Source: Fusobacterium massiliense
GTDB lineage: Bacteria; Fusobacteriota; Fusobacteriia; Fusobacteriales; Fusobacteriaceae
Length of the DNA: 64,000 nucleotides
Direction of reading: 5' to 3'
Assembly (NCBI RefSeq): GCF_900095705.1
Contig: NZ_LT608324.1
Span: forward strand, 124,001 to 188,000
The notes under the pieces were generated by a model that saw only the letters and a list, made by a program, of their open reading frames with translations, was not told the origin of the DNA and ran no database searches. This document shows, piece by piece, positions 5,196 through 62,931 of the stretch. Numbering within the stretch: position 1 is the first letter of the stretch; each line of letters opens with the position of its first letter. The position numbers and the translations under genes were made by a program.

Positions 5196-5271
5196 AGTCT
5201 CTTGACAGCCGTATGAGTTCTACGAGCTGGATAAATACAGGCTCTTCGGACTAATACGGACGTCAGAGACT
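5196..5271 (-). repeat. 76-bp palindromic dispersed element, copy A
   Basis: Full-length copy, core on the minus strand; the ends AGTCTCT and AGAGACT are inverted repeats. It lies between copZ and copA, inside what would otherwise be one operon. The adjacent TATACTTTCC flank is not recognisable here. Confidence 0.9.
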
Positions 5272-5275
5272 TTGT

Positions 5276-5470
5276 TTATATTAAATCATATCCTGCATCA
5301 TCTAATTTTTCTCTTATTTTAGTTAATACACTTTCATCTTTAACTTCAACTTCTGCCGAACCAACTTTAACATCTAAGACTTTTATTTCGTCTATCTCTT
5401 CTAACGCCTTCTTTACAGATTTTACACAATGTTCACAAGCCATACCTTCAATTTTCAAATTTAATTTCAT
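5276..5470 (-). CDS. copZ: Copper chaperone (HMA domain)
   Basis: A 64-residue single heavy-metal-associated domain with the metal site GMACEHC near residues 9-15. Length and the beta-alpha-beta pattern match CopZ-type chaperones that hand Cu(I) to the HMA domain of CopA. An AGGAGG-type ribosome site precedes the ATG. It is transcribed towards copA, and a palindromic element fills the gap, which may set the ratio of the two products. CxHC rather than CxxC of the pump is common in chaperones. Confidence 0.9.
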   Translation of the reverse strand: MKLNLKIEGMACEHCVKSVKKALEEIDEIKVLDVKVGSAEVEVKDESVLTKIREKLDDAGYDLI

Positions 5471-6588: not shown

Positions 6589-6708
6589 AATTTCTTATTT
6601 ATAAACCTTTCTAAGATTTTGTACATTCTACCATAAAAAGTATTTTTTTTATATTAGAAATTTAATTATTTTTTTATTTACTTGTTATTACAAATAAAAA
6701 ATAAATAA

Positions 6709-6784
6709 AGTCTCTGACGTCCATATTAGTTCGAAGAGCCTATGTTCATTGAGCTCGTAGAACTCATATGGCTGTCAAGAGACC
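6709..6784 (+). repeat. 76-bp palindromic dispersed element, copy B
   Basis: Full-length copy in forward orientation with the right end AGAGACC instead of AGAGACT. It lies between the TPR gene and the 3' end of the pyruvate oxidoreductase gene. The rest of the gap (6785-6953) holds an inverted repeat GTAGATTT/AAATCTAC at 6836-6909 with an inner AGAGT/ACTCT pair, perhaps the 3' end structure of the oxidoreductase transcript. Confidence 0.9.
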
Positions 6785-6953
6785 ATTTTTTTTATTTAAG
6801 TATAGTAAAAAAGTAAAAATAAATTAATTACAATTGTAGATTTTGGATAAAAAATTAAATTAGAGTGAGCCCAGCAAACTCTCCATTTTTTTACTGTTAA
6901 GAAATCTACTAAATAACTAACTATTTTTACTTTTTAAATAATATTTTTTTTAT

Positions 6954-10526: not shown

Positions 10527-10702
10527 TTTGTATCCTCCTCAATAAATATAGTTTATTTTTATTTTAAAAATACTTTTTTAGTTTAATATATCGTTTTTAC
10601 AAACATATTATATATCATTTATTAAAAAAAATAAAGAATTTTTTCCCGATTTTCTAATTTTTTTTATTGTATAGGAAAGTATAAAAATAAATAGAAAAAA
10701 TT

Positions 10703-10778
10703 AGTCTCTGACGTCCGTATTAGTTCGAAAAGCCTGTGTTTATTGAGCTCGTAGAACTCATACGACTGTCAAGAGACT
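10703..10778 (+). repeat. 76-bp palindromic dispersed element, copy C
   Basis: Full-length forward copy between the pyruvate oxidoreductase start and the NhaC stop. Here the conserved flank lies on the left and is inverted (TATAGGAAAGTATAAA, about 10673-10688), unlike most forward copies, whose flank is on the right. Confidence 0.9.
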
Positions 10779-10791
10779 TTTTTAATACAAA

Positions 10792-13522: not shown

Positions 13523-14950
13523 ATGAAAGATTCAATTATTAGAGAATCTGATATCTCTATTTCAACTCAACTTTATGATATTTTAAGGAAAACTATTATT
13601 GAAAAGAAATGGAAAGAAAATCAAAAATACTATTCTGTAAGACAATTATCTATAAGATATAACGTTAATCCAAATACTGTTTTAAAAGTAATACATATTT
13701 TAGAAGACGAAGGATATTTATATAGTGTGAAAGGTAAAGGTTGTTTTATAAAAAAAGGTTATAACAACGATATTAGTGTGAGAATGACACCCATTTTAAA
13801 CACTTTTAAATTCGGGCAGTTTTCTAAAGAAACTGAAATTAATCTTTCAAATGGAGCACCCCCTAAGGAATTTTTTCCTATCAAAGATTATAATAAATTA
13901 TTAAATGAAATTTTAAACGATAAAGAAAATATAAATTCTTTGATGGGTTATCAAAATATACAGGGCTTAGAAAGTTTAAGAGAAGTTTTAAGTGATTTCA
14001 CAAAAAAATATGGAATTATTTCTGATAAAAATAATATGATTCTATGTTCTGGTACTCAAATGGCACTTCAACTTATTAGTACCTCTTTTGGAATAAATCC
14101 TAAAAAAACTATAGCATTATCTAATCCAACCTATCAAAATGCAATCTTTATATTAAAAAACTTTTGTGATATTGAGTATATAGACTTACAATATGATGGC
14201 TGGAATATGAAAGAGTTTGAAAATTTATTAAAAAATAAAAAAATAGATTTTGTTTATATTATGACAAATTTTCAAAATCCAACTGGAATTAGTTGGAGTT
14301 TTGTTAAAAAAAGACATTTATTGGCTCTTGCTGAAAAGTTTGATTTTTATATTATTGAAGATGAATGTTTTTCTGATTTTTTTTATTACTCTCAAAAAAC
14401 TCCTCATTCTTTAAAAGCATTAGATAAAAATGATAGAGTTTTCTTTATTAAAACTTTTTCAAAAATTGTTATGCCAGGAATTTCTTTAGCTTTATTTATT
14501 CCACCTAAAAAATATATAGAAAACCTAAGCTTAAACAAATATTTTATTGAAACTACAACATCTGGAATAAATCAAAAATTTTTAGAATTTTTTATTAAAA
14601 GAGGGCTTTTAGACAAACACCTATCTAACCTTAGAAATGTTTTAAAAGAAAAAATGGATTTCACTTTAAACTTACTTCAAAATATTAAGCATATTGAAGT
14701 TATATTTGAGCCTAAAGGTGGCTTTTTTATTTGGCTCAAACTTGCACACTACATAGATAGTGAGAAATTTTATTATAAGTGTAAACTTCGTGGGCTTAGT
14801 ATTCTTCCAAGCTTTGTTTTTAGCTCTACTACTAAAGAGTTGAAATCAAGAATAAGAATTAGTATAGTTTCGGCTTCTATGCAAGAAATTAAAAAAGGTG
14901 TTGAAATAATAGAAGATATTCTGAATCATTGTGAAAATTTAGATATGTAA
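13523..14950 (+). CDS. GntR/MocR-type regulator with aminotransferase domain
   Basis: A 475-residue fusion. Residues about 10-75 form a GntR winged helix-turn-helix (VRQLSIRYNVNPNTVLKVI). Residues about 110-470 form a fold-type-I aminotransferase-like domain with NLSNGAPP, the NPTG-like segment NFQNPTGISW, and the probable PLP lysine in IKTFSKIVMPG near 318. MocR regulators sense PLP or amino-acid adducts. The gene is divergent from megL with a short shared upstream region (13390-13522), so megL is its likeliest target. The start follows AAGGAGG. No operator is obvious by eye. Confidence 0.88.
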   Translation: MKDSIIRESDISISTQLYDILRKTIIEKKWKENQKYYSVRQLSIRYNVNPNTVLKVIHILEDEGYLYSVKGKGCFIKKGYNNDISVRMTPILNTFKFGQFSKETEINLSNGAPPKEFFPIKDYNKLLNEILNDKENINSLMGYQNIQGLESLREVLSDFTKKYGIISDKNNMILCSGTQMALQLISTSFGINPKKTIALSNPTYQNAIFILKNFCDIEYIDLQYDGWNMKEFENLLKNKKIDFVYIMTNFQNPTGISWSFVKKRHLLALAEKFDFYIIEDECFSDFFYYSQKTPHSLKALDKNDRVFFIKTFSKIVMPGISLALFIPPKKYIENLSLNKYFIETTTSGINQKFLEFFIKRGLLDKHLSNLRNVLKEKMDFTLNLLQNIKHIEVIFEPKGGFFIWLKLAHYIDSEKFYYKCKLRGLSILPSFVFSSTTKELKSRIRISIVSASMQEIKKGVEIIEDILNHCENLDM

Positions 14951-14954
14951 ATAA

Positions 14955-15030
14955 AGTCTCTGACGTCCGTATTAGTTCGAAGAGCCTGTATTCATTGAGC
15001 TCGTAGAACTCATACGGCTGTCAAGAGACT
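14955..15030 (+). repeat. 76-bp palindromic dispersed element, copy D
   Basis: Full-length forward copy starting only five bases after the MocR-type gene stops. The flank TATACTTTCC starts at 15047, followed by the deoD terminator hairpin. It may end the regulator transcript. Confidence 0.92.
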
Positions 15031-24674: not shown

Positions 24675-24970
24675 ATGGATAAAATTCAGAGAGATATGGA
24701 TGAAATTTCGATAGAGCCTAACACTTGGGATTTACATTCGTCTAATGTAACAGTCTTTTTATTTGGTGGGCAATAGTAAGTGGAATAATAATAGGAGTCT
24801 CTTTTGTTTTTTATTCATATAACTTACAAAAAGTTAAAAACGGTAATCTTTTAGGAATAGTTGCTCTTATAAATATTATTTCAGCAGTATTTTACGGATT
24901 TCTTTTATTATTTAGATACAGCTCTCCTCGTTACAGAGATTGTTTTTTCATTCAACTTTTCAAAAAATAA
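24675..24970 (+). pseudogene. Frameshifted small membrane-protein gene
   Basis: An ATG at 24675 opens MDKIQRDMDEISIEPNTWDL and stops at an in-frame TAG near 24778. A different frame from about 24750 then reads WWAIVSGIIIGVSFVFYSY and GIVALINIISAVFYGFLLLF, two clear membrane spans, to a stop at 24970. The two parts join if one base is restored around 24745-24755. The family is not recognised. The remainder of 24542-25178 holds repeat E and a terminator. Confidence 0.45.
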
Positions 24971-24974
24971 AAAA

Positions 24975-25050
24975 AATCTCCGACGTCCGTATTAGTTCGA
25001 AGATCCTGTATTTATTAAGCTCGTAGAACTCATACGGCTGTCAAGAGACT
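24975..25050 (+). repeat. 76-bp palindromic dispersed element, copy E
   Basis: Full-length forward copy (left end AATCTCC). TATACTTTCC begins at 25070 and runs into the terminator at 25088-25125. Confidence 0.9.
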
Positions 25051-25087
25051 TTATTTTACTATTTAACTTTATACTTTCCTATAAAGC

Positions 25088-25774: not shown

Positions 25775-25787
25775 GTTTAAAAAATAA

Positions 25788-25863
25788 AGTCTCTGACGTC
25801 CGTATTAGTTCGAAGAGCCTGTGTTCATTGAGCTCGTAGAACTCATACGGCTGTCAAGAGACT
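25788..25863 (+). repeat. 76-bp palindromic dispersed element, copy F
   Basis: Full-length forward copy, one of the closest to the consensus. The flank TATACTTTCC starts at 25883 and leads directly into the T-run of the cold-shock gene terminator. Confidence 0.92.
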
Positions 25864-25900
25864 AATTTTCTTTATTTATTATTATACTTTCCTATAGAAT

Positions 25901-26584: not shown

Positions 26585-26626
26585 ATAAATAGTTAAGAAA
26601 TTATATTAATTAAGTATATAAAAAAA

Positions 26627-26702
26627 AGTCTCTGACGTCCGTATTAGTTCGAAGAGCCTGTGTTTATTGAGCTCGTAGAACTCATACGGCTGTCAAGAGA
26701 CT
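26627..26702 (+). repeat. 76-bp palindromic dispersed element, copy G
   Basis: Full-length forward copy lying between divergent genes. Its flank (TATACTTTCT from 26720) runs straight into the nox ribosome site, the only copy placed in a 5' leader this close to a start codon. Confidence 0.92.
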
Positions 26703-28255: not shown

Positions 28256-29698
28256 ATGGAAAATAACTTACAAAAAAAATTTTACACAAAAAAAACTTCC
28301 CCAATTATGAAAAAAATTATATTCTTATTTATTTTTTCACTTTTATTACAAATACCTTTATCGTTTATTGGAAGTTTAATTTTTGATAGAGGTGATTTAT
28401 ATAATAAAACTGTAATTAGCATTGGTAATGAATGGGGAAAAAATCAAAAAATTATAGCTCCTGTAATTACTATTTCATATACAGATACAGGTATAGATAA
28501 TGAAAAAGATATCATTAATTCAAAAACTCTTGCAGTGGTTCCAGTTGAAAAGAAATTTGTAATACTTCCTGATGAGCTTAATGCAATTATTAAAATAAAA
28601 GATGAAATAAGACAAAGAGGAATATATAATGCCACTGTCTATAATGCAAATATGAAATTAAAAGGTTTTTTTTCGCCTAAAGATTTTCCAAAAAACAAAA
28701 AAATTAAATCTTATTTATCTATTGGATTATCAGACACTAAAGCTCTTATAAAAATCAATAAATTAAAAATAGGAAATTTAGAAAAAGATTTAGATGCTAT
28801 GTCTGGAACTATGGCTGTTCCTTTAATCACTAATGGAATATCTGCCGAACTTAAATTAGATTTTAATAAAATTTTAGAAGAAGAAAAAATTCCTTTTGAA
28901 ATTGATATAGACTTTAGAGGAAGTAAGGATATTTCAATATTACCTCTTGGAAAGAAAAACAATATCGAAATTAGTTCAAATTGGAAATCTCCAAGTTTTT
29001 CAGGCATCTTACCAAGTGAAAAAAATATCAATAATAACGGTTTTTCAGCTAAATGGGAGGTTTCAAATTTAGTTAGAAATTATCCTCAAATTATAGATAT
29101 AAACGAAGATAAATACGATGATTTCTATTACGATGATTCCTATTACGATGATTCCTATTACGATGATTCCTATTACGATGATTCCTATGATGAAAATAAC
29201 TCTAATAATGAAAATACTGTTATAAAAACTGGATTATTTGATTCTATAACAGATTATACTCAAATCACTAGAGCAAGTAAATACGGAATCTTGTTTATTA
29301 TGATGAGTTTGGTCATAGTTTATATATTTGAAGTAATTAGCAGAAGATTTACTCACTATGTACAATACCTAATTGTAGGACTATCTCTTATTATTTTTTA
29401 CCTACTATTACTATCTTTATCAGAGCATATAGGCTTTGAATGGGCTTATTTAATTTCCTCATTAGCTATAGTTATTCCAAACTCCTTATATATAATGAGT
29501 CTAACTTCAAATAAAAAACTTGGAATCGGAATGTTCTTTTTCTTAAGTGGTATTTATGCAATATTATTTTCTATCTTAAGAATGGAGCAATATGCTTTAC
29601 TAACTGGAAGTCTATTGATACTTACTGTACTTTATGTTGTTATGTACCTAACAAAAAACACTGAAATTTTTGAAAGACTTGAAAATAGAGAAAAATAA
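28256..29698 (+). CDS. creD: CreD-family inner-membrane protein
   Basis: A 480-residue protein with an N-terminal membrane anchor (IIFLFIFSLLLQIPLSFIGS), a large extracytoplasmic domain (about residues 45-335), and four to five C-terminal membrane segments (about 345-470). Order and motifs fit CreD of unknown, envelope-related function. Residues about 286-311 are a Tyr/Asp/Ser repeat, YYDDS, encoded by a 15-bp tandem repeat. GAAAGGAG precedes the ATG. No creBC genes are adjacent. Confidence 0.88.
   Translation: MENNLQKKFYTKKTSPIMKKIIFLFIFSLLLQIPLSFIGSLIFDRGDLYNKTVISIGNEWGKNQKIIAPVITISYTDTGIDNEKDIINSKTLAVVPVEKKFVILPDELNAIIKIKDEIRQRGIYNATVYNANMKLKGFFSPKDFPKNKKIKSYLSIGLSDTKALIKINKLKIGNLEKDLDAMSGTMAVPLITNGISAELKLDFNKILEEEKIPFEIDIDFRGSKDISILPLGKKNNIEISSNWKSPSFSGILPSEKNINNNGFSAKWEVSNLVRNYPQIIDINEDKYDDFYYDDSYYDDSYYDDSYYDDSYDENNSNNENTVIKTGLFDSITDYTQITRASKYGILFIMMSLVIVYIFEVISRRFTHYVQYLIVGLSLIIFYLLLLSLSEHIGFEWAYLISSLAIVIPNSLYIMSLTSNKKLGIGMFFFLSGIYAILFSILRMEQYALLTGSLLILTVLYVVMYLTKNTEIFERLENREK
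29111..29185 (+). repeat. 15-bp in-frame tandem repeat inside creD
   Basis: Four identical units TATTACGATGATTCC (29126-29185) follow one degenerate unit (29111-29125). Each encodes Tyr-Tyr-Asp-Asp-Ser. Unit length is a multiple of three, so copy-number change keeps the frame. Confidence 0.95.
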
Positions 29699-29703
29699 AA
29701 AAA

Positions 29704-29779
29704 AGTCTCTGACGTCCGTATTAGTTCGAAGAGCCTATGTTTATTGAGCTCGTAGAACTCATACGGCTGTCAAGAGACT
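29704..29779 (+). repeat. 76-bp palindromic dispersed element, copy H
   Basis: Full-length forward copy five bases after creD stops. TATACTTTCC starts at 29798 and is followed by the bidirectional terminator at 29821. Confidence 0.92.
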
Positions 29780-29820
29780 AACTTAGTTATTTAATTTTAT
29801 ACTTTCCTTATAAATAAAAT

Positions 29821-38101: not shown

Positions 38102-38122
38102 TTTTATTCCTTTGATAAATAA

Positions 38123-38195
38123 AGTCTCCTGACAACCGTATGACTCTTCCGAGCTCACCGAAATGCTCTCCAGAGTAATACGGAGGTTGGAGACT
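38123..38195 (-). repeat. Diverged member of the palindromic element family (73 bp)
   Basis: AGTCTCCTGACAACCGTATG at the left and CCGTATT/CTCTGGAG-like sequence at the right match the family in reverse orientation with many compensating changes; TATACTTTCC lies at about 38213. A fragment of another half-element (CTCTTCGAACTAATACAGAC) follows at 38231-38263. Located between converging genes. Confidence 0.7.
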
Positions 38196-38281
38196 AATTT
38201 TCATATTAAATTTATACTTTCCTATAAAATAAACTCTTCGAACTAATACAGACATCAGGAGATATTATTTTATTTATACAT

Positions 38282-38634: not shown

Positions 38635-40014
38635 TTATTTTTTTGTTAAAGTCATTCCTGTAAATCCAAAAATTAATGTTAATATCAATGAAAGGTAACA
38701 GAAAAATGAAAATGGTAAGTAAGCTACTGTACTAACTCCTAAAACACTAGTTATAAAAACCCCACAAACTCCCCAAGGAACTAAAGGATTGATAACAGTT
38801 CCTGAATCTTCTAAGGTTCTTGATAAATTTTTAGAATGTAGTTGCAATTCATCATAGATAGGCTTAAAAGTTTTTCCTGAAAGTAAAATACTTAAGTATT
38901 GCTCTCCCACTATGTAATTTACTCCTAAAGCTGTAAAAGCTACACAAAAAGTCGCTCTTGATGGTGTTGTTAATAAATGAGCTATGCTTTCTAATAATGT
39001 AGGAATAATTCCTAAACCAAATAATAAACCTCCCAAGGCCAAAGCAAGTATTACTATTGTCAATGTAAAAAACATACTGTTTATTCCACCTCTATTTAGA
39101 AGACTTGCTATTGTTTGTGGTAAATCAGCCTTTGAAAATCCTGCAAATAAAAACCCAGCTATTTCTTCTAAACTATAAGAATTATTAATGAATGCTATTC
39201 CTAGTCCAACTATACTTGTATATATAATTGTTAATATTGCTGGAACTTTTAATATTGAAAATATTATTAATAAAATGAAAGGTATAAAAGATAAATTATT
39301 AACTAAACCTGTATTTAAAATATCATTCTTAAATTGTACAACACTTGATATATCTCCAACCTTATTCCAAGGAGAAAGTAAAGTAAATGCAAGAGCTGAT
39401 AATATAAAAGCTGGAACTGTTGTATACATCATATTTTTTATATGTTCAAATAAATCAACTCCGACTATACTTGCCGAAATACTTGTTGTATCTGATAAAG
39501 GAGACATTTTATCTCCAAAAAATGCTCCAGATACTATTGCTCCAGCAGTGATTGCAGGATTTAATCCAAAAGCATTAGACATTCCCATAAGAGCAACTCC
39601 TAAAGTTGCAACAGTAGTCAAGCTACTTCCAATAGCTATTCCAATAATTGCTGTTATTACAAAAGATGAAAGGTAAAACACCTTTGTTGAAATTATATCT
39701 AAACCATAAAAAATTAATGTTGGTATAGACCCTGCCATCATTAGTACTGTAACTAAAATTCCAATGAAAAAAAACAAAAATACAGCTCCCATACTTGTAC
39801 TAACAGATTGAATCATACTATTTTGTAATAATGAAAATTTAACTTTATTTATAGAACCATATAATAATAAAAATACAATAGTTATTAAAACTGGAATATG
39901 TGGTGTCATATTTGGAATTCCTATCATTGAGTATCCTAGTATTAGAAATACTATCAAAATTATAAGTATTGCTTCCATTTTCTTCGGTTTGTGATGTTGT
40001 ACTAAATCAAACAT
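38635..40014 (-). CDS. NhaC-family antiporter downstream of a Tyr-rich leader
   Basis: About 459 residues, 11-12 membrane spans, with the family signature GAFFGDKMSPLSDTTSISAS near residue 165 and the late GVNYIVGEQYLSI segment. GAGGGAGAG lies seven bases before the ATG at 40014; a longer frame to 40086 only runs through a decayed repeat. Upstream are two palindromic elements and, beyond a terminator, a 28-codon ORF with a YVYYY run. Some NhaC-family genes have been predicted as tyrosine transporters (yheL, T-box controlled in Firmicutes), which fits a Tyr-sensing leader. The substrate is not proven. Confidence 0.88.
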   Translation of the reverse strand: MFDLVQHHKPKKMEAILIILIVFLILGYSMIGIPNMTPHIPVLITIVFLLLYGSINKVKFSLLQNSMIQSVSTSMGAVFLFFFIGILVTVLMMAGSIPTLIFYGLDIISTKVFYLSSFVITAIIGIAIGSSLTTVATLGVALMGMSNAFGLNPAITAGAIVSGAFFGDKMSPLSDTTSISASIVGVDLFEHIKNMMYTTVPAFILSALAFTLLSPWNKVGDISSVVQFKNDILNTGLVNNLSFIPFILLIIFSILKVPAILTIIYTSIVGLGIAFINNSYSLEEIAGFLFAGFSKADLPQTIASLLNRGGINSMFFTLTIVILALALGGLLFGLGIIPTLLESIAHLLTTPSRATFCVAFTALGVNYIVGEQYLSILLSGKTFKPIYDELQLHSKNLSRTLEDSGTVINPLVPWGVCGVFITSVLGVSTVAYLPFSFFCYLSLILTLIFGFTGMTLTKK

Positions 40015-40043
40015 AAAAATCTCTCCCTCTAATTTTTTTATAA

Positions 40044-40119
40044 AGCCCATTAACAACCTTATGAGTTTTAAAAATTTAATAAACACAGTTTATTCAAACT
40101 AATATAGCCATTTGAGCCT
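40044..40119 (-). repeat. Decayed 76-bp palindromic element, copy J
   Basis: Exactly 76 bp, with AACCTTATGAGTT, CACAG and CAAACTAATA still recognisable in the reverse orientation, followed by a decayed flank TATACTTTTC near 40139. It shows the family includes old copies. Confidence 0.65.
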
Positions 40120-40168
40120 AATTTTTATTTTAAATTTTATACTTTTCTAACAAATAACAAATAAATAA

Positions 40169-40244
40169 AGTCTCTTGACAGCCGTATGAGTTCTACGAGC
40201 TCAATGAACACAGGCTCTTCCAACTAATACGGATGTCAGAGACT
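40169..40244 (-). repeat. 76-bp palindromic dispersed element, copy K
   Basis: Full-length reverse copy with the flank TATACTTTCC on its right at about 40263, directly next to the T-run of the leader terminator. It lies between the leader and the NhaC-type gene. Confidence 0.92.
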
Positions 40245-40280
40245 ATTTTTGCTATTTAATTTTATACTTTCCTAATAAAC

Positions 40281-40383
40281 AAAAAAGGCTTTTTACATAT
40301 TGTAAATGTAAAAAGCCTTAGGTACCTTATTATAAATTAGAGGCTCTTTACAAATACAAATAGAGCCACTAATTAATGACTCT
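40281..40383 (-). promoter_or_regulatory. Candidate tyrosine attenuator (terminator and antiterminator)
   Basis: On the minus strand a 14-bp perfect stem (40285-40298 with 40306-40319, seven-base loop) followed by six T is a strong terminator. Upstream, a stem of 12 pairs plus one mismatch forms between 40362-40374 and 40335-40347. Its 3' arm plus flanking bases (40341-40351, GTAAAGAGCCT) can alternatively pair 11 of 11 (one G-U) with the terminator 5' arm (40308-40318). AGAGTC immediately after the leader stop codon (40378-40383) can pair with GGCTCT (40362-40367), releasing the antiterminator strand. A ribosome at the stop codon would cover AGAGTC. No RNA-folding computation was possible. 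Confidence 0.6.
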
Positions 40384-40470
40384 CTAATTCTTATAATAAT
40401 ATACGTAACCAAAATGATTTTTATTTATATTTAGGTTTTTATTTAATTCTATTGATAGTAAGTTTAACAT
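40384..40470 (-). CDS. 28-residue Tyr-rich leader peptide
   Basis: ATG at 40468-40470 follows AAAGGAG and opens a 28-codon ORF. Its last ten residues are H-F-G-Y-V-Y-Y-Y-K-N, with Tyr at codons 22, 24, 25 and 26, immediately before TAG. A consensus promoter lies 36 bp upstream and attenuator-like RNA follows the stop. This is the arrangement of an amino-acid biosynthesis or transport leader peptide. A free-standing small protein is the alternative; the sequence has no membrane span. Confidence 0.65.
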   Translation of the reverse strand: MLNLLSIELNKNLNINKNHFGYVYYYKN

Positions 40471-40505
40471 TTTGATTACTCCTTTCTTATTAATTATGAT
40501 TTTGA

Positions 40506-40534
40506 ATTTTAACATAATATAAAGAGCTTGTCAA
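40506..40534 (-). promoter_or_regulatory. Consensus promoter of the leader ORF
   Basis: TTGACA (40529-40534), exactly 17 bases, TAAAAT (40506-40511) on the minus strand. Transcription would start near 40499 and reach the terminator at about 40281, giving a leader RNA near 220 bases. It is divergent from recJ. Confidence 0.8.
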
Positions 40535-40620: not shown

Positions 40621-43179
40621 ATGAGAAAAGAAACTAAATGGATTTTAGAAAACGAAGTTAATTATGAATATGTTTTTAATAAAGAAAAAAATAAAAAATT
40701 AGATTACATAGTAAAAGAAATTTTAGAGAATAGAAATTTATCTCTTGAAGATGACTTTTCTTTTGATCCTTTTGATTTAAAAGATATTGATATTGCATAT
40801 GAAAGAATAATGAAAGCAATAGAAAAAAATGAAAAAATTTATATCTATGGAGACTACGATGTAGACGGGATAACTTCTGTTTCACTTCTATATTTATCTT
40901 TATCTGAACTAGGTGCAAATGTTAACTATTATATTCCATTGAGAGATGAAGGTTATGGTCTTAATAAAGAAGCTATACAAACATTAAAAAACGATGGAGC
41001 TAATCTCGTTATAAGTGTTGACTGTGGTATAAACTCCGCAGAAGAAATTGACTTAGCTAATGAATTAGAATTAGATTTTATTATAACAGATCATCATGAA
41101 ATAACAGGGAATTTACCAAAAGCTATGGCAGTTATCAACCCTAAAAGAAATGAGAATATATACTCTTTCAAATATTTAGCAGGTGTTGGAACAGCTTTTA
41201 TGCTTGTTTATGCTATTTATAAAAAACAAAATAAAATGAATGATTTAAACAAATATCTAGATATCGTAGCTATTGGAACTGTTGCAGATATAGTCCCTTT
41301 AGTTTCTGACAACAGAAAATTTGTAAGAAGAGGTTTAAAAGTTTTAAAAAATACAAGATGGATAGGAATAAAGCAACTTATTAGAAAAATTTTCCCTGAT
41401 GATTGGGATAGTAGAGAATATTTTGCTTACGATATAGGTTATATAATTGCCCCTATTTTTAATGCTGCTGGTCGTTTAGAAGATGCAAAACAAGCCGTTT
41501 CTTTGTTTGTTGAAGAAGATGGCTTTAAATGCTTACAAATTATAGATAAACTTTTGGAAAATAACAATTCAAGAAAAGAGATACAAAAAAGAATATTTGA
41601 AACATCTTTAGTTGAAATTGAAAAAAAACAACTATACAATAGAAAATTAATTTTAGTGGCTAATAAAAATTTCCATCATGGTGTTATAGGTATAGTTGCA
41701 TCTAAAATTTTAGATAAATACTATAAGCCTAGTATTATCATGGAAATAAAAGAAAATGAAGGAATAGCAACTGCCTCTTGCAGAAGTATTGATGGTATAA
41801 ATATAGTAGAATGTTTAAATTCTGTTAGTGATATTTTAGTAAAATACGGTGGTCATTCAGGAGCTGCAGGTTTTACAATAAATATTGAAAATATTGATGA
41901 ATTTTATGATAGGGTAGAAAAATATATAGACGAGCACTATGACACTGAAGTTTTTAAAAAAAATATAAAAATAGAATCAATTTTAGAGCCTTACAAAGTA
42001 AATTATAATTTTTTAAAAGAGTTAGAATTACTTGAACCATACGGAGCTAAAAATCATACTCCTATTTTTATTTTTAAAAATTGTAGATTTGAAAATCTAA
42101 GATTTACTAGAAATAGTACAGAACATCTTATGATGGATATTATGAAAGATGGATACTATTTCAAAAATTGTATTTTTTTTGGTGGTGGGGATTACTATGA
42201 TTTGGTAGCTGAATCAAAAAGTATTGATATAGCTTTTAAATTAAAATTAGAAACTTTTAAAGATAGATATATGTGTAAGTTACAACTTGAAGATATTAAA
42301 AATTCAGAAAATAATTCAGATATTTTTGATAGCATTCTAAAATTAGAAGGTAAAGATATTACTTTTCCAATAGAAACAGTTGTCTATCCTAAGAGAATGG
42401 ATATTGAAAATCCCATATCTTTAAGTTTTAACGATTATGGGGTAGCTTTAACTAAAGATAGAGTTATTTTTGAAAATATTGACTCTAATCTTTCTAAAAT
42501 TTTAGTAACACTAAAAAGGGATTTCAATTATGATTTTTCAGTAGAGATAAAAGAAAGATATATAAAAAAAGAAAATATAAACTTACATATTGTAATAAAC
42601 AAAAAGGAAGCTGAACTGAAAAGTTTTCCAATAAAAGACAATCAAATTTTTATGGAAATTAAAAATATGTTAATAGGAAATTTTTCGTATAACTCTATTC
42701 AGAAAAAAATACTTTCTTCTATTTTTAAAGAGAAAAATCCTACTCTTGCTATAATGGAAAAAGGAAGAGGAATAGAAACTATTATAAATACAATAAAATT
42801 TTTCTATGAATACAAAAATTTAACTATAAGTATAAATGACGCTTCTAAAAAAGCTAATTTCTATATCTTTACTTTAAATTTTAATCACGATACAATTTTA
42901 GAAGATTTTCTTAAAAGTCTTGAAAAAATTGAAAATAAAAATAATATCTTAATTATTTCAAACAGAGATTTTAATATCAATAATTTTATAAAAATTGAGG
43001 ATACTTACTCTGTTCCAAAAAATGTTGAGTATATAGATTATAAAGAAATTAAAAAATTAAAAGATTTTGATAACTTATATTACCCATTCTTATCAAATGA
43101 AAAGAAAGAAATTTTATTAAAAAAAGTAGAAGAAAATGAAAAAATATATTCAACAAAAGAAATAGTTGTTCATTTCTAA
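40621..43179 (+). CDS. recJ: Single-stranded-DNA-specific exonuclease RecJ, long form
   Basis: An 852-residue 5'-3' ssDNA exonuclease. The DHH domain has YGDYDVDGITS near residue 80, DCGINSAEEI, ITDHHEITG near 160 and NAAGRLEDAKQAV near 285. DHHA1 has RKLILVANKNFHHGVIGIVA near 345 and GGHSGAAGF near 415; an OB-like part follows. Typical RecJ is about 570 residues, so the last roughly 280 residues are an extra domain. That part is Lys/Asn-rich, with no motif recognised. Start follows GAAAGG. Confidence 0.93.
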   Translation: MRKETKWILENEVNYEYVFNKEKNKKLDYIVKEILENRNLSLEDDFSFDPFDLKDIDIAYERIMKAIEKNEKIYIYGDYDVDGITSVSLLYLSLSELGANVNYYIPLRDEGYGLNKEAIQTLKNDGANLVISVDCGINSAEEIDLANELELDFIITDHHEITGNLPKAMAVINPKRNENIYSFKYLAGVGTAFMLVYAIYKKQNKMNDLNKYLDIVAIGTVADIVPLVSDNRKFVRRGLKVLKNTRWIGIKQLIRKIFPDDWDSREYFAYDIGYIIAPIFNAAGRLEDAKQAVSLFVEEDGFKCLQIIDKLLENNNSRKEIQKRIFETSLVEIEKKQLYNRKLILVANKNFHHGVIGIVASKILDKYYKPSIIMEIKENEGIATASCRSIDGINIVECLNSVSDILVKYGGHSGAAGFTINIENIDEFYDRVEKYIDEHYDTEVFKKNIKIESILEPYKVNYNFLKELELLEPYGAKNHTPIFIFKNCRFENLRFTRNSTEHLMMDIMKDGYYFKNCIFFGGGDYYDLVAESKSIDIAFKLKLETFKDRYMCKLQLEDIKNSENNSDIFDSILKLEGKDITFPIETVVYPKRMDIENPISLSFNDYGVALTKDRVIFENIDSNLSKILVTLKRDFNYDFSVEIKERYIKKENINLHIVINKKEAELKSFPIKDNQIFMEIKNMLIGNFSYNSIQKKILSSIFKEKNPTLAIMEKGRGIETIINTIKFFYEYKNLTISINDASKKANFYIFTLNFNHDTILEDFLKSLEKIENKNNILIISNRDFNINNFIKIEDTYSVPKNVEYIDYKEIKKLKDFDNLYYPFLSNEKKEILLKKVEENEKIYSTKEIVVHF

Positions 43180-43280: not shown

Positions 43281-43315
43281 CATTTATAAGGGAAGTATAA
43301 AAATAAATAAAAAAT

Positions 43316-43391
43316 AGTCTCTGACGTCCGTATTAGTTCGAAGAGCCTGTGTTCATTGAGCTCGTAGAACTCATACGGCTGTCAAGTGACT
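43316..43391 (+). repeat. 76-bp palindromic dispersed element, copy L
   Basis: Full-length forward copy with right end AAGTGACT. The flank is on the left (GGGAAGTATAAA near 43290), next to the recJ terminator, giving terminator-flank-core order in the recJ transcript. Confidence 0.92.
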
Positions 43392-43395
43392 TTAT

Positions 43396-44193
43396 TTATT
43401 TATCATATCTATACATTCCTAAACGATTATTCATAATCCAAAAAAGTGGAATAAATATTTTTTTTGATAGGGGCAAAATTTTTGCCATTTTTTCTGTAAA
43501 ATTAATAAGTCCTATTTGTTTTAATTTAGGTTCTAATTTTACAACTTCACTACCGTCTTTTACACCCCATTTAAATACAGCATTATTCATTTTCTTTAGA
43601 GCATCGTGTTTTGAACTCATTTTTACAGTTCCTTTATAAAGTAAATCTAAATGTAACTCAAATTTATTAAAGCTATTAACTAAATTTTCTAAAATTTTCT
43701 TTACTTCACTTTCATCAAAATACATAAAAACTCCTTCAGAAATTATAAGCAACTCTTTGCCGTTAGTTACAACTTCTTTGGTCCAATCAGATTCAAAAAC
43801 TGACTTTGAAATATTTTTTACTCTATCATTTTCTTTAAAAAAATTTTTTCTTACTTCTATTACTTCTGGCAAATCAAGATTATACCAAATTATTTTTCCA
43901 TTATCTACTCTTTCAAATCTGGTATCAAGTCCACAACCTATTGAAATTATTACACAATCTTGATATTTGGCTATAAACTTCTTTACTTCTTTATCCATTA
44001 TATATGCTCTTGCTAATACTCCATAATAACTAGCCCAAGCAGTATCAAATTTTTTAAAATCATAATCTAATTGTGAAACAATTTCAAAAGATTTTTTATC
44101 TTGTAAAATAGATTTTGTACTTTCATAATCTTTAGCCCTTACATTTAATGTTATAAGCAATGTTTCTGCTACACCATCTAATTTAATTTTCAT
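43396..44193 (-). CDS. LCM/TcmP-type SAM-dependent methyltransferase
   Basis: A 265-residue enzyme of the leucine carboxyl methyltransferase-like (PPM1/TcmP) superfamily. SAM-binding motif I is CVIISIGCGLDTRFERV near residue 85, followed by WYNLDLPEVIEVRK near 110 and ISEGVFMYFDESEVKKIL near 160. Members O-methylate small molecules or carboxyl groups; the substrate here is unknown. It has no obvious operon partner. Confidence 0.82.
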   Translation of the reverse strand: MKIKLDGVAETLLITLNVRAKDYESTKSILQDKKSFEIVSQLDYDFKKFDTAWASYYGVLARAYIMDKEVKKFIAKYQDCVIISIGCGLDTRFERVDNGKIIWYNLDLPEVIEVRKNFFKENDRVKNISKSVFESDWTKEVVTNGKELLIISEGVFMYFDESEVKKILENLVNSFNKFELHLDLLYKGTVKMSSKHDALKKMNNAVFKWGVKDGSEVVKLEPKLKQIGLINFTEKMAKILPLSKKIFIPLFWIMNNRLGMYRYDK

Positions 44194-44348
44194 AAAAAGC
44201 CTCCTTCGTGATTAGATAATAAATATAATTAATTTTATTATACTCTTCATAAATGAAACTTTCAATATTTTTTACTAGCTAAATTTCTTTAAATCAAAAT
44301 ATTTGTATATATAATTTTTATAGAAAAGTCTAAATTTAAATACTTATT

Positions 44349-44413
44349 AGTCTCTGACGTCCGTATTAGTTCGAAGAGCCTGTGTTCATTGAGCTCGTAG
44401 AACTCAAGAGACT
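44349..44413 (+). repeat. Palindromic element copy M with an 11-bp deletion
   Basis: This forward copy matches the consensus except that ATACGGCTGTC is missing between GAACTC and AAGAGACT, leaving 65 bp. The deletion removes the partner of the CCGTAT arm. TATACTTTCC and the hutG terminator follow. Confidence 0.92.
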
Positions 44414-50682: not shown

Positions 50683-50758
50683 AACATCTTGATATCCATA
50701 TGAGTTCTACGAGCTCAATGAACATAGGCTTTTCAAACTAATACGGACGTCAGAGAGT
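50683..50758 (-). repeat. 76-bp palindromic dispersed element, copy P
   Basis: Full-length reverse copy, left end diverged (AACATCTTGATATCC). It abuts the radical-SAM start on the left; the flank TATGCTTTCC and a terminator lie on the right. Confidence 0.88.
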
Positions 50759-50795
50759 ATTTTTTGTTATTTAATTTTATGCTTTCCTTACAAAT

Positions 50796-54874: not shown

Positions 54875-54906
54875 TCAATCACCTTTTTTTATTTAATTTT
54901 AAATAA

Positions 54907-54982
54907 AGTCTCTTGATAGCCGTATGAGTTCTACGAGCTCAATGAACACAGGCTCTTCGAACTAATACGAACGTCAGAGACT
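54907..54982 (-). repeat. 76-bp palindromic dispersed element, copy Q
   Basis: Full-length reverse copy; TATACTTTCC lies on its right near 55001. It separates the J-protein gene from the second toxin-antitoxin pair. Bases 55020-55176 are AT-rich with nothing else recognised. Confidence 0.92.
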
Positions 54983-55176
54983 AATTTTTGATGTTTATTT
55001 TTATACTTTCCTATAGAATTAATAAAATCTTTTCTCAATTATACCACAAAAAAAAGTCTTTTTGCAATTATTAGAAAATTTTAATTCTTTTTTTATAATT
55101 TTATATGATTATTATTATTTTTTGTTATAATATTATAAAAAGGCTTAAAGTTTTTACTCTAAACCTTTTATAATTA

Positions 55177-56323: not shown

Positions 56324-56399
56324 AGTCTCTGATGTCCGTATTAGTTCGAAGAGACTGTGTTTATTGAACTCGTAGAACTCTTACGGCTGTCAAGAGACT
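56324..56399 (+). repeat. 76-bp palindromic dispersed element, copy R
   Basis: Full-length forward copy four bases from the IS relic. The flank TATACTCTCC lies near 56420, followed by the leuS terminator. Confidence 0.92.
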
Positions 56400-56435
56400 G
56401 ATTTTGGTTATTTAATTTTATACTCTCCTTATAAA

Positions 56436-62415: not shown

Positions 62416-62492
62416 CGGAATATAGCGCAGTCCGGTAGCGCACCTGCCTTGGGAGCAGGGGGCCGCAAGTTCGAATCTTGCTATTCCGACCA
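62416..62492 (+). tRNA. tRNA-Pro (anticodon TGG)
   Basis: The acceptor stem CGGAATA/TATTCCG, T-arm GTTCGAATC, anticodon TGG in the loop CTTGGGA, and an encoded CCA end are visible. Confidence 0.96.
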
Positions 62493-62499
62493 TTGAAGT

Positions 62500-62575
<76 letters not shown>

Positions 62576-62582
62576 ATATAAT

Positions 62583-62659
62583 GGTGATTGTAGTTCAGTT
62601 GGTAGAGCGCCAGTTTGTGGCACTGGTTGTCGCGGGTTCGAGTCCCGTCAATCACCCCA
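62583..62659 (+). tRNA. tRNA-His (anticodon GTG)
   Basis: Acceptor GTGATTG/CAATCAC with the extra G-1 (62583) opposite C73, anticodon GTG, T-loop GTTCGAGTC and encoded CCA. Confidence 0.96.
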
Positions 62660-62663
62660 TTAT

Positions 62664-62739
62664 GCGTCATTAGCTCAGTTGGTAGAGCACACGACTTTTA
62701 ATCGTGTTGTCACAAGTTCAAATCTTGTATGACGCACCA
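62664..62739 (+). tRNA. tRNA-Lys (anticodon TTT)
   Basis: Acceptor GCGTCAT/ATGACGC, anticodon TTT in CTTTTAA, T-loop GTTCAAATC and encoded CCA. Confidence 0.96.
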
Positions 62740-62761
62740 TTTTTTTATAATAGACTTTTTT

Positions 62762-62845
62762 GCGGGGATGGCGGAATTGGCAGACGCGCTAGACTTAGGA
62801 TCTAGTGTCTTAGACGTGAGAGTTCAAGTCTCTCTCTCCGCACCA
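62762..62845 (+). tRNA. tRNA-Leu (anticodon TAG)
   Basis: Acceptor GCGGGGA/TCTCCGC-type pairing, anticodon TAG in CTTAGGA, a long variable arm (TGTCTTAGACGT), T-loop GTTCAAGTC and encoded CCA; class II length of 84. Confidence 0.95.
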
Positions 62846-62856
62846 TCTTATTTTAT

Positions 62857-62931
62857 TGGGGTGTCGCCAAGCGGTAAGGCAACGGACTTTGACTCCGTTA
62901 TGCGTTGGTTCGAATCCAGCCACCCCAGCCA
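62857..62931 (+). tRNA. tRNA-Gln (anticodon TTG)
   Basis: Acceptor TGGGGTG/CACCCCA, anticodon TTG in CTTTGAC, T-loop GTTCGAATC and encoded CCA. Confidence 0.96.

Follow-up and report, generated by a model that had tools for sequence, protein, structure and literature searches.

Leader-peptide attenuators are textbook devices, and those of trp and his terminate transcription when the leader is not translated. The model of both attenuators is set out in PMC1183508. In Firmicutes, control of NhaC genes by Tyr T-boxes has been published (PMC2494555), and in bacilli His leader peptides replace T-boxes before hisS (PMC2965389). Leader ORFs have also been related to aromatic amino acids: AroR of Corynebacterium glutamicum, with the control codons Phe-Tyr-Phe, controls a DAHP synthase operon and is reported to respond to the limitation of Phe and not of Tyr (review PMC11802643), and before aroF of Acholeplasma, a gene of aromatic amino acid metabolism, the uORFC-13-1 motif is a candidate attenuator with a leader ORF (PMC8632094).

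In the 64-kb stretch of Fusobacterium massiliense DNA that was analysed (the window), the region upstream of an nhaC gene very probably encodes a ribosome-mediated transcription attenuator. It would respond to charged tRNA-Tyr and regulate an NhaC-family transporter whose most likely role is the uptake of tyrosine. Like the enterobacterial his and trp attenuators, it presents a run of cognate codons in a short ORF, mutually exclusive stems among which the ribosome would select, and an intrinsic terminator before the gene, and its five strands presumably correspond to strands B-F of his. Unlike those attenuators, it would sense Tyr, it precedes a transporter gene, it is found in Fusobacteriota and it carries an additional hairpin over the ribosome site of the leader ORF, called the lock here. 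The order of the parts is also different: the control codons precede strand 1 and the stop codon is placed at the edge of this strand, and it is the finishing ribosome, not the stalled one, that would mask strand 1.

This leader shares with AroR the presence of Tyr among the control codons. It resembles the Acholeplasma motif as a candidate leader-ORF attenuator, although the latter has Phe codons and a biosynthetic gene. It also resembles the hisS case, where a leader peptide stands in for a T-box before related genes, although amino acid, gene and phylum are different there. No leader family (Trp, His, Leu, Thr, Phe) was matched at the locus with Rfam, even at E values up to 5. A tyrosine-sensing leader was not found in Rfam or the open-access papers searched, nor a leader-peptide attenuator from Fusobacteria in these papers, which is in both cases weak evidence of absence.

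The leader and its gene in the window

The leader is located in the intergenic region between the divergent genes recJ (40621-43179, plus strand) and nhaC, and is read on the minus strand. The first-pass annotation had placed a promoter, a 28-codon ORF with a good ribosome site and a set of pairing segments there, and every part was found at its position (Table 1). The promoter it described also has a TG ahead of the -10 box. The numbering of the Tyr codons had to be corrected, since they had been given as codons 22-25. The peptide ends in NHFGYVYYYKN-stop. The 242-nt leader fold has a z-score of -5.0, and none of 200 shuffles was equally stable. Moreover, no other short ORF in the 64-kb window has a Shine-Dalgarno sequence, four or more Tyr in a run close to its end and a nearby downstream terminator.

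Table 1. Elements of the nhaC leader and neighbouring features, in coordinates of the window.
Feature	Position	Strand	Remarks
Promoter TTGACA-17-TAAAAT, extended -10 (TG)	40506-40534	-	11/12 matches
Shine-Dalgarno AAAGGAG of leader ORF	40479-40485	-	
Lock, 5' strand GUAAUCAAAAUG	40468-40479	-	last Shine-Dalgarno base through AUG
Leader ORF, MLNLLSIELNKNLNINKNHFGYVYYYKN	40384-40470	-	28 codons + TAG
Lock, 3' strand CAUUUUGGUUAC	40405-40416	-	codons just ahead of the Tyr run and first Tyr codon
Control codons TAC GTA TAT TAT TAT	40393-40407	-	Tyr 22, 24, 25, 26; then two sense codons and stop
Strand 1 AGAGTCATT	40375-40383	-	abuts stop codon; masked by ribosome at stop
Strand 2 AATTAGTGGCTCT	40362-40374	-	partner is strand 1 or strand 3; near-invariant in four genomes
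Strand 3 TGTAAAGAGCCTCTAATT	40335-40352	-	partner is strand 2 (40347-40335) or strand 4 (40352-40341, antiterminator)
Intrinsic terminator, strands 4 and 5	40285-40319	-	14 pairs, then U tract
Imperfect-palindromic repeat, two copies	40050-40262	-	between terminator and nhaC; absent here in three orthologous loci
nhaC, controlled gene	38635-40014	-	NhaC-family transporter, 459 aa; PF03553; TIGR00931

The nhaC product passes the TIGR00931 model (395.8 bits, cut-off 370), and no sequence relatives of it were found among solved structures. The repeat before the gene is about 100 bp long. The window contains it at about 15 places, in either orientation, mostly with 77-97% identity to the copy at 40150-40262. 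These places are 5196-5286, 6692-6797, 10684-10786, 14936-15030, 24969-25056, 25780-25883, 26608-26702, 29693-29792, 38115-38213, 40040-40262, 43300-43401, 44348-44406, 50687-50777, 54900-55001 and 56324-56413. It is also present on other contigs of the genome and is MITE-like or REP-like. Elsewhere in the window, six tRNA genes are clustered at 62416-62928.

Close NhaC orthologs (74-76% identity) were found in three genomes only: G036 and G037 (loci L018 and L017), from another genus of the same family, and Oceanivirga miroungae (L045), from another family. Two further genomes of the genus of the window encode distant NhaC paralogs only. The element is present in all four orthologous loci, covering three genera and two families, each with a short ORF predicted to be translated that has a start codon, a Shine-Dalgarno sequence (strong in all the orthologs) and a codon run for one amino acid. 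The promoters of the orthologs are TTGACT/TTGACA/TTGACA and TAGAAT/TAAAAT/TAATAT with 17 nt between the boxes, and a TG is located one base ahead of each -10. Their leader peptides end in ...FANFFYYYYMN, ...FANFFYYYYYMN (FFYYYYYMN) and ...CLKSYYYMN. The leader ORFs have 19-28 codons and have diverged in their first halves, with in-frame length changes. Conservation of the Tyr codons, which the first-pass annotation had named as a test, was observed in every ortholog found: the Tyr run is kept, it uses both Tyr codons, and in each of the four leaders the last Tyr is followed by exactly two sense codons and then the stop. Downstream of the ORF, GAATTAGAGAGTCA, TTAGTGGCTC and GAGCCTCTAAT are identical in the four loci and are followed by strand 4 and the terminator.

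The upstream neighbour genes differ among these loci, so the leader has remained with nhaC although the genomic setting is not the same. When 96 genomes of the order were searched with a covariance model of the element, only these four loci matched convincingly, and an exact pattern search recovered the same four, with none in the reversed control. A possible fifth copy in G020 (L086:11-116, E = 3.4e-4) is terminator-like, lacks a Tyr leader and lies at a contig end, and it was judged to be due to chance. No convincing Tyr leaders were found before other fusobacterial NhaC paralogs or before the relatives from Neisseria, Moraxella and Erysipelotrichaceae.

Alternative pairings and the position of the ribosome

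Sequence and computation establish the parts of the leader, how far they are conserved, where the stop codon lies, which pairings are alternatives and in which direction the energy shifts. All the mutually exclusive stems of the first-pass annotation are present (1:2, 2:3, 3:4 and 4:5), including the 12-bp middle stem. Hairpin 1:2 (40383-40362) has nine pairs in the window including wobbles, and 7-9 pairs across the leaders, so it is longer than the six pairs that had been considered a weak point. Stem 2:3 has 12 pairs and one U-U mismatch, and the antiterminator 3:4 has 12 pairs (40352-40341 with 40318-40307) and excludes the intrinsic terminator. Regarding the covariation expected for these stems, compensatory changes appear in the terminator (T-A to C-G in relatives) and in the ribosome-site hairpin, but there is little in strands 1-3, which are almost invariant. 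With four sequences in all, covariation cannot be shown for 1:2 or 2:3.

The stop codon TAG adjoins strand 1. A ribosome footprint reaching 12-15 nt past the P-site base ends before this strand when the last Tyr codon occupies the A site and masks it when the stop codon does, which bears out computationally the geometry proposed in the first-pass annotation. For the window leader, full-length equilibrium folding with footprints P+12 to P+15 gave 1:2+3:4 with the ribosome at each of the Tyr codons and 2:3+4:5 with the ribosome at the stop. In most footprints, the open state appears when the ribosome is at a Tyr codon but not when it has moved on to the Lys/Asn codons. This sharp flip was not retained as decisive evidence. 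It is weaker once the 5' part is omitted, since the terminator tail is another possible partner of the 5' leader, and the energy differences computed without the 5' part were therefore used instead.

By these differences, the move of the ribosome from the last Tyr codon to the stop raises the terminator drive by 5.6, 6.3, 5.9 and 1.6 kcal/mol (window, L017, L018 and L045, respectively) and cuts the antiterminator preference, before strand 5 is made, by 6.0, 7.3, 7.8 and 6.8 kcal/mol in the same order. Hence, in the computed energies the shift is towards termination in the four leaders, and it is small on one measure, the terminator drive, in Oceanivirga. The antiterminator pairing was reached by 0, 0, 0 and 6 per 100 shuffles of the four leaders. 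Before strand 5 exists, 3:4 is still favoured by 7.4 kcal/mol in the window leader with the ribosome at the stop, so the off state would depend on kinetics or displacement and not on equilibrium alone.

When no ribosome is present, a transcript that ends at the terminator loop adopts 1:2+3:4 in the four leaders, and read-through is therefore predicted if the leader is not translated. A strand equivalent to his strand A, which pairs with B and gives extra termination without translation, was not seen in this leader, and for this reason too read-through, not extra termination, is predicted without translation.

The lock in the window is a hairpin of 12 bp with no mismatch and one G-U (-13.3 kcal/mol). 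Its 3' strand encodes His-Phe-Gly-Tyr at the edge of the Tyr run; it is hidden wholly or in part while the ribosome is at the Tyr codons and is free when the ribosome is at the stop. The number of codon shuffles per 2000 that reach the lock energy is 2 for the window and 1, 0 and 54 for the other leaders. This hairpin recurs in L017 and L018, where it contains an internal loop and is accompanied by a further stem over the Shine-Dalgarno sequence. The Oceanivirga hairpin, formed by AAGUGAUCUGUAUG and CAUAUUGAUUGCUU, keeps the register; in it A-U is replaced by U-A, several positions have changed on one side only, and there is one mismatch. The His codon CAU is kept in the four leader peptides, presumably because CAU is the complement of AUG in this hairpin. 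The likely role of the lock would be to block further initiation after one ribosome finishes. Other leader-peptide attenuators could be checked for a hairpin of this type.

The probable connection to tyrosine and competing explanations

Prephenate dehydrogenase is below the cut-off in the four leader-bearing genomes and above it in the 14 controls; tyrosine is therefore probably imported in the former. The product of nhaC is most likely a transporter for tyrosine uptake, as predicted from its regulation. Tyrosine phenol-lyase was considered as another metabolic link, and it is above the cut-off in G037 only, which gives no consistent link.

In a phylogeny of 73 NhaC proteins, those from the four leader-bearing loci group together as a clade (support 100/99), nested in a larger clade of Firmicutes and Proteobacteria and apart from the other fusobacterial NhaC proteins. 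This larger clade includes 11 Firmicutes loci with a T-box directly before nhaC, and at the eight for which the alignments were read (L061, L063, L065, L070, L071, L073, L076 and L077) the specifier position is, by our reading, UAC or UAU, that is, Tyr. The parallel with tyrosine T-boxes drawn in the first-pass annotation thus holds within the same clade. In one case, Priestia taiwanensis (L071:1990-2817), three tandem T-boxes precede one nhaC, all of them above the Rfam cut-off, and the aligned one reads UAC. Among the 96 genomes of the order, T-boxes above the Rfam cut-off appear in two (L078 in G023 and L079 in G033). The annotation had also seen no T-box at the present locus; in agreement with this, Rfam gave no T-box match in the window or in the whole genome, and the antiterminator-bulge motif TGG(T/A)ACCGCG is absent from the locus. 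The leader and the Firmicutes Tyr T-box before NhaC have the same transporter clade, the charging of tRNA-Tyr as predicted signal and a terminator/read-through output in common (PMC2494555). They differ in the sensor, which would be the translating ribosome here and not a tRNA-binding RNA.

It is rather unlikely that a real leader peptide would react to any slowing of translation, or to more than one aromatic amino acid (Phe and Tyr), instead of to tyrosine alone. The Phe codons found shortly before the Tyr run in three of the four leaders would fit such a response, as would the behaviour of AroR described above. However, the Oceanivirga leader keeps YYY without any Phe, the open state arises in most footprints from the Tyr codons instead of the next Lys/Asn codons, and the T-boxes of the same NhaC clade read Tyr codons. 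A riboswitch or degenerate T-box that senses tyrosine or tRNA directly, with an incidental ORF, is very improbable. It would account for the conservation of strands 1-3 and their loops beyond the needs of pairing, but there is no Rfam match above threshold and no T-box motif at the locus, and the frame, the Shine-Dalgarno sequence, the Tyr run and the two-codon spacing are kept in an ORF that has otherwise diverged with in-frame length changes.

We also give hardly any credit to the idea that the stem-loops merely close a small RNA or other transcript at its 3' end and that nhaC is transcribed from its own promoter in the spacer, unregulated by them. The 266 bp and two repeats between terminator and gene in the window, already noted in the first-pass annotation as a weak point, are what would favour it. 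Against it, the scan found no promoter-like site on the minus strand of the spacer, the gene comes directly after the terminator in the three relatives, and element and gene always occur together with differing upstream neighbours. Since nhaC starts shortly after the terminator in the relatives, the repeats are genome-wide and no spacer promoter was found, the spacer is best explained as an insertion acquired later and confined to this genome, and that weak point falls. The tyrosine attenuator that had been proposed is thus supported computationally by the conserved Tyr codons, the geometry of the ribosome and the T-box parallel.

Proposed mechanism and biological meaning

From these results we infer the tyrosine response in cells, together with the NhaC substrate, the role of the lock and read-through without leader translation. 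When tyrosine is sufficient, the ribosome at the stop would cover strand 1, 2:3 and 4:5 would form, and transcription would end. When tyrosine is short, the ribosome would wait at a Tyr codon with strand 1 free, and 1:2 would form; strand 3, freed in this way, would pair with strand 4 and transcription would enter nhaC. The lock hairpin would be kept open by the ribosome at the Tyr codons and may close after it moves to the stop, and this closure would restrict the leader to about one reading.

A broader and tentative description is that of a fail-open, read-once attenuator, in which nhaC may be on unless a ribosome reaches the stop and the lock may limit the measurement to one ribosome. It may also form an independent unit that travels together with nhaC and takes the place of the Tyr T-box found before the related Firmicutes genes.

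Two unrelated RNA devices, this leader peptide and the Firmicutes T-box, would serve one gene and one signal, which makes a direct comparison possible. Furthermore, the order of the strands predicts a default opposite to that of trp and his, with read-through in the absence of leader translation. Finally, as far as the genome sequences indicate, an orphan NhaC clade may be tied to tyrosine uptake in predicted tyrosine auxotrophs.
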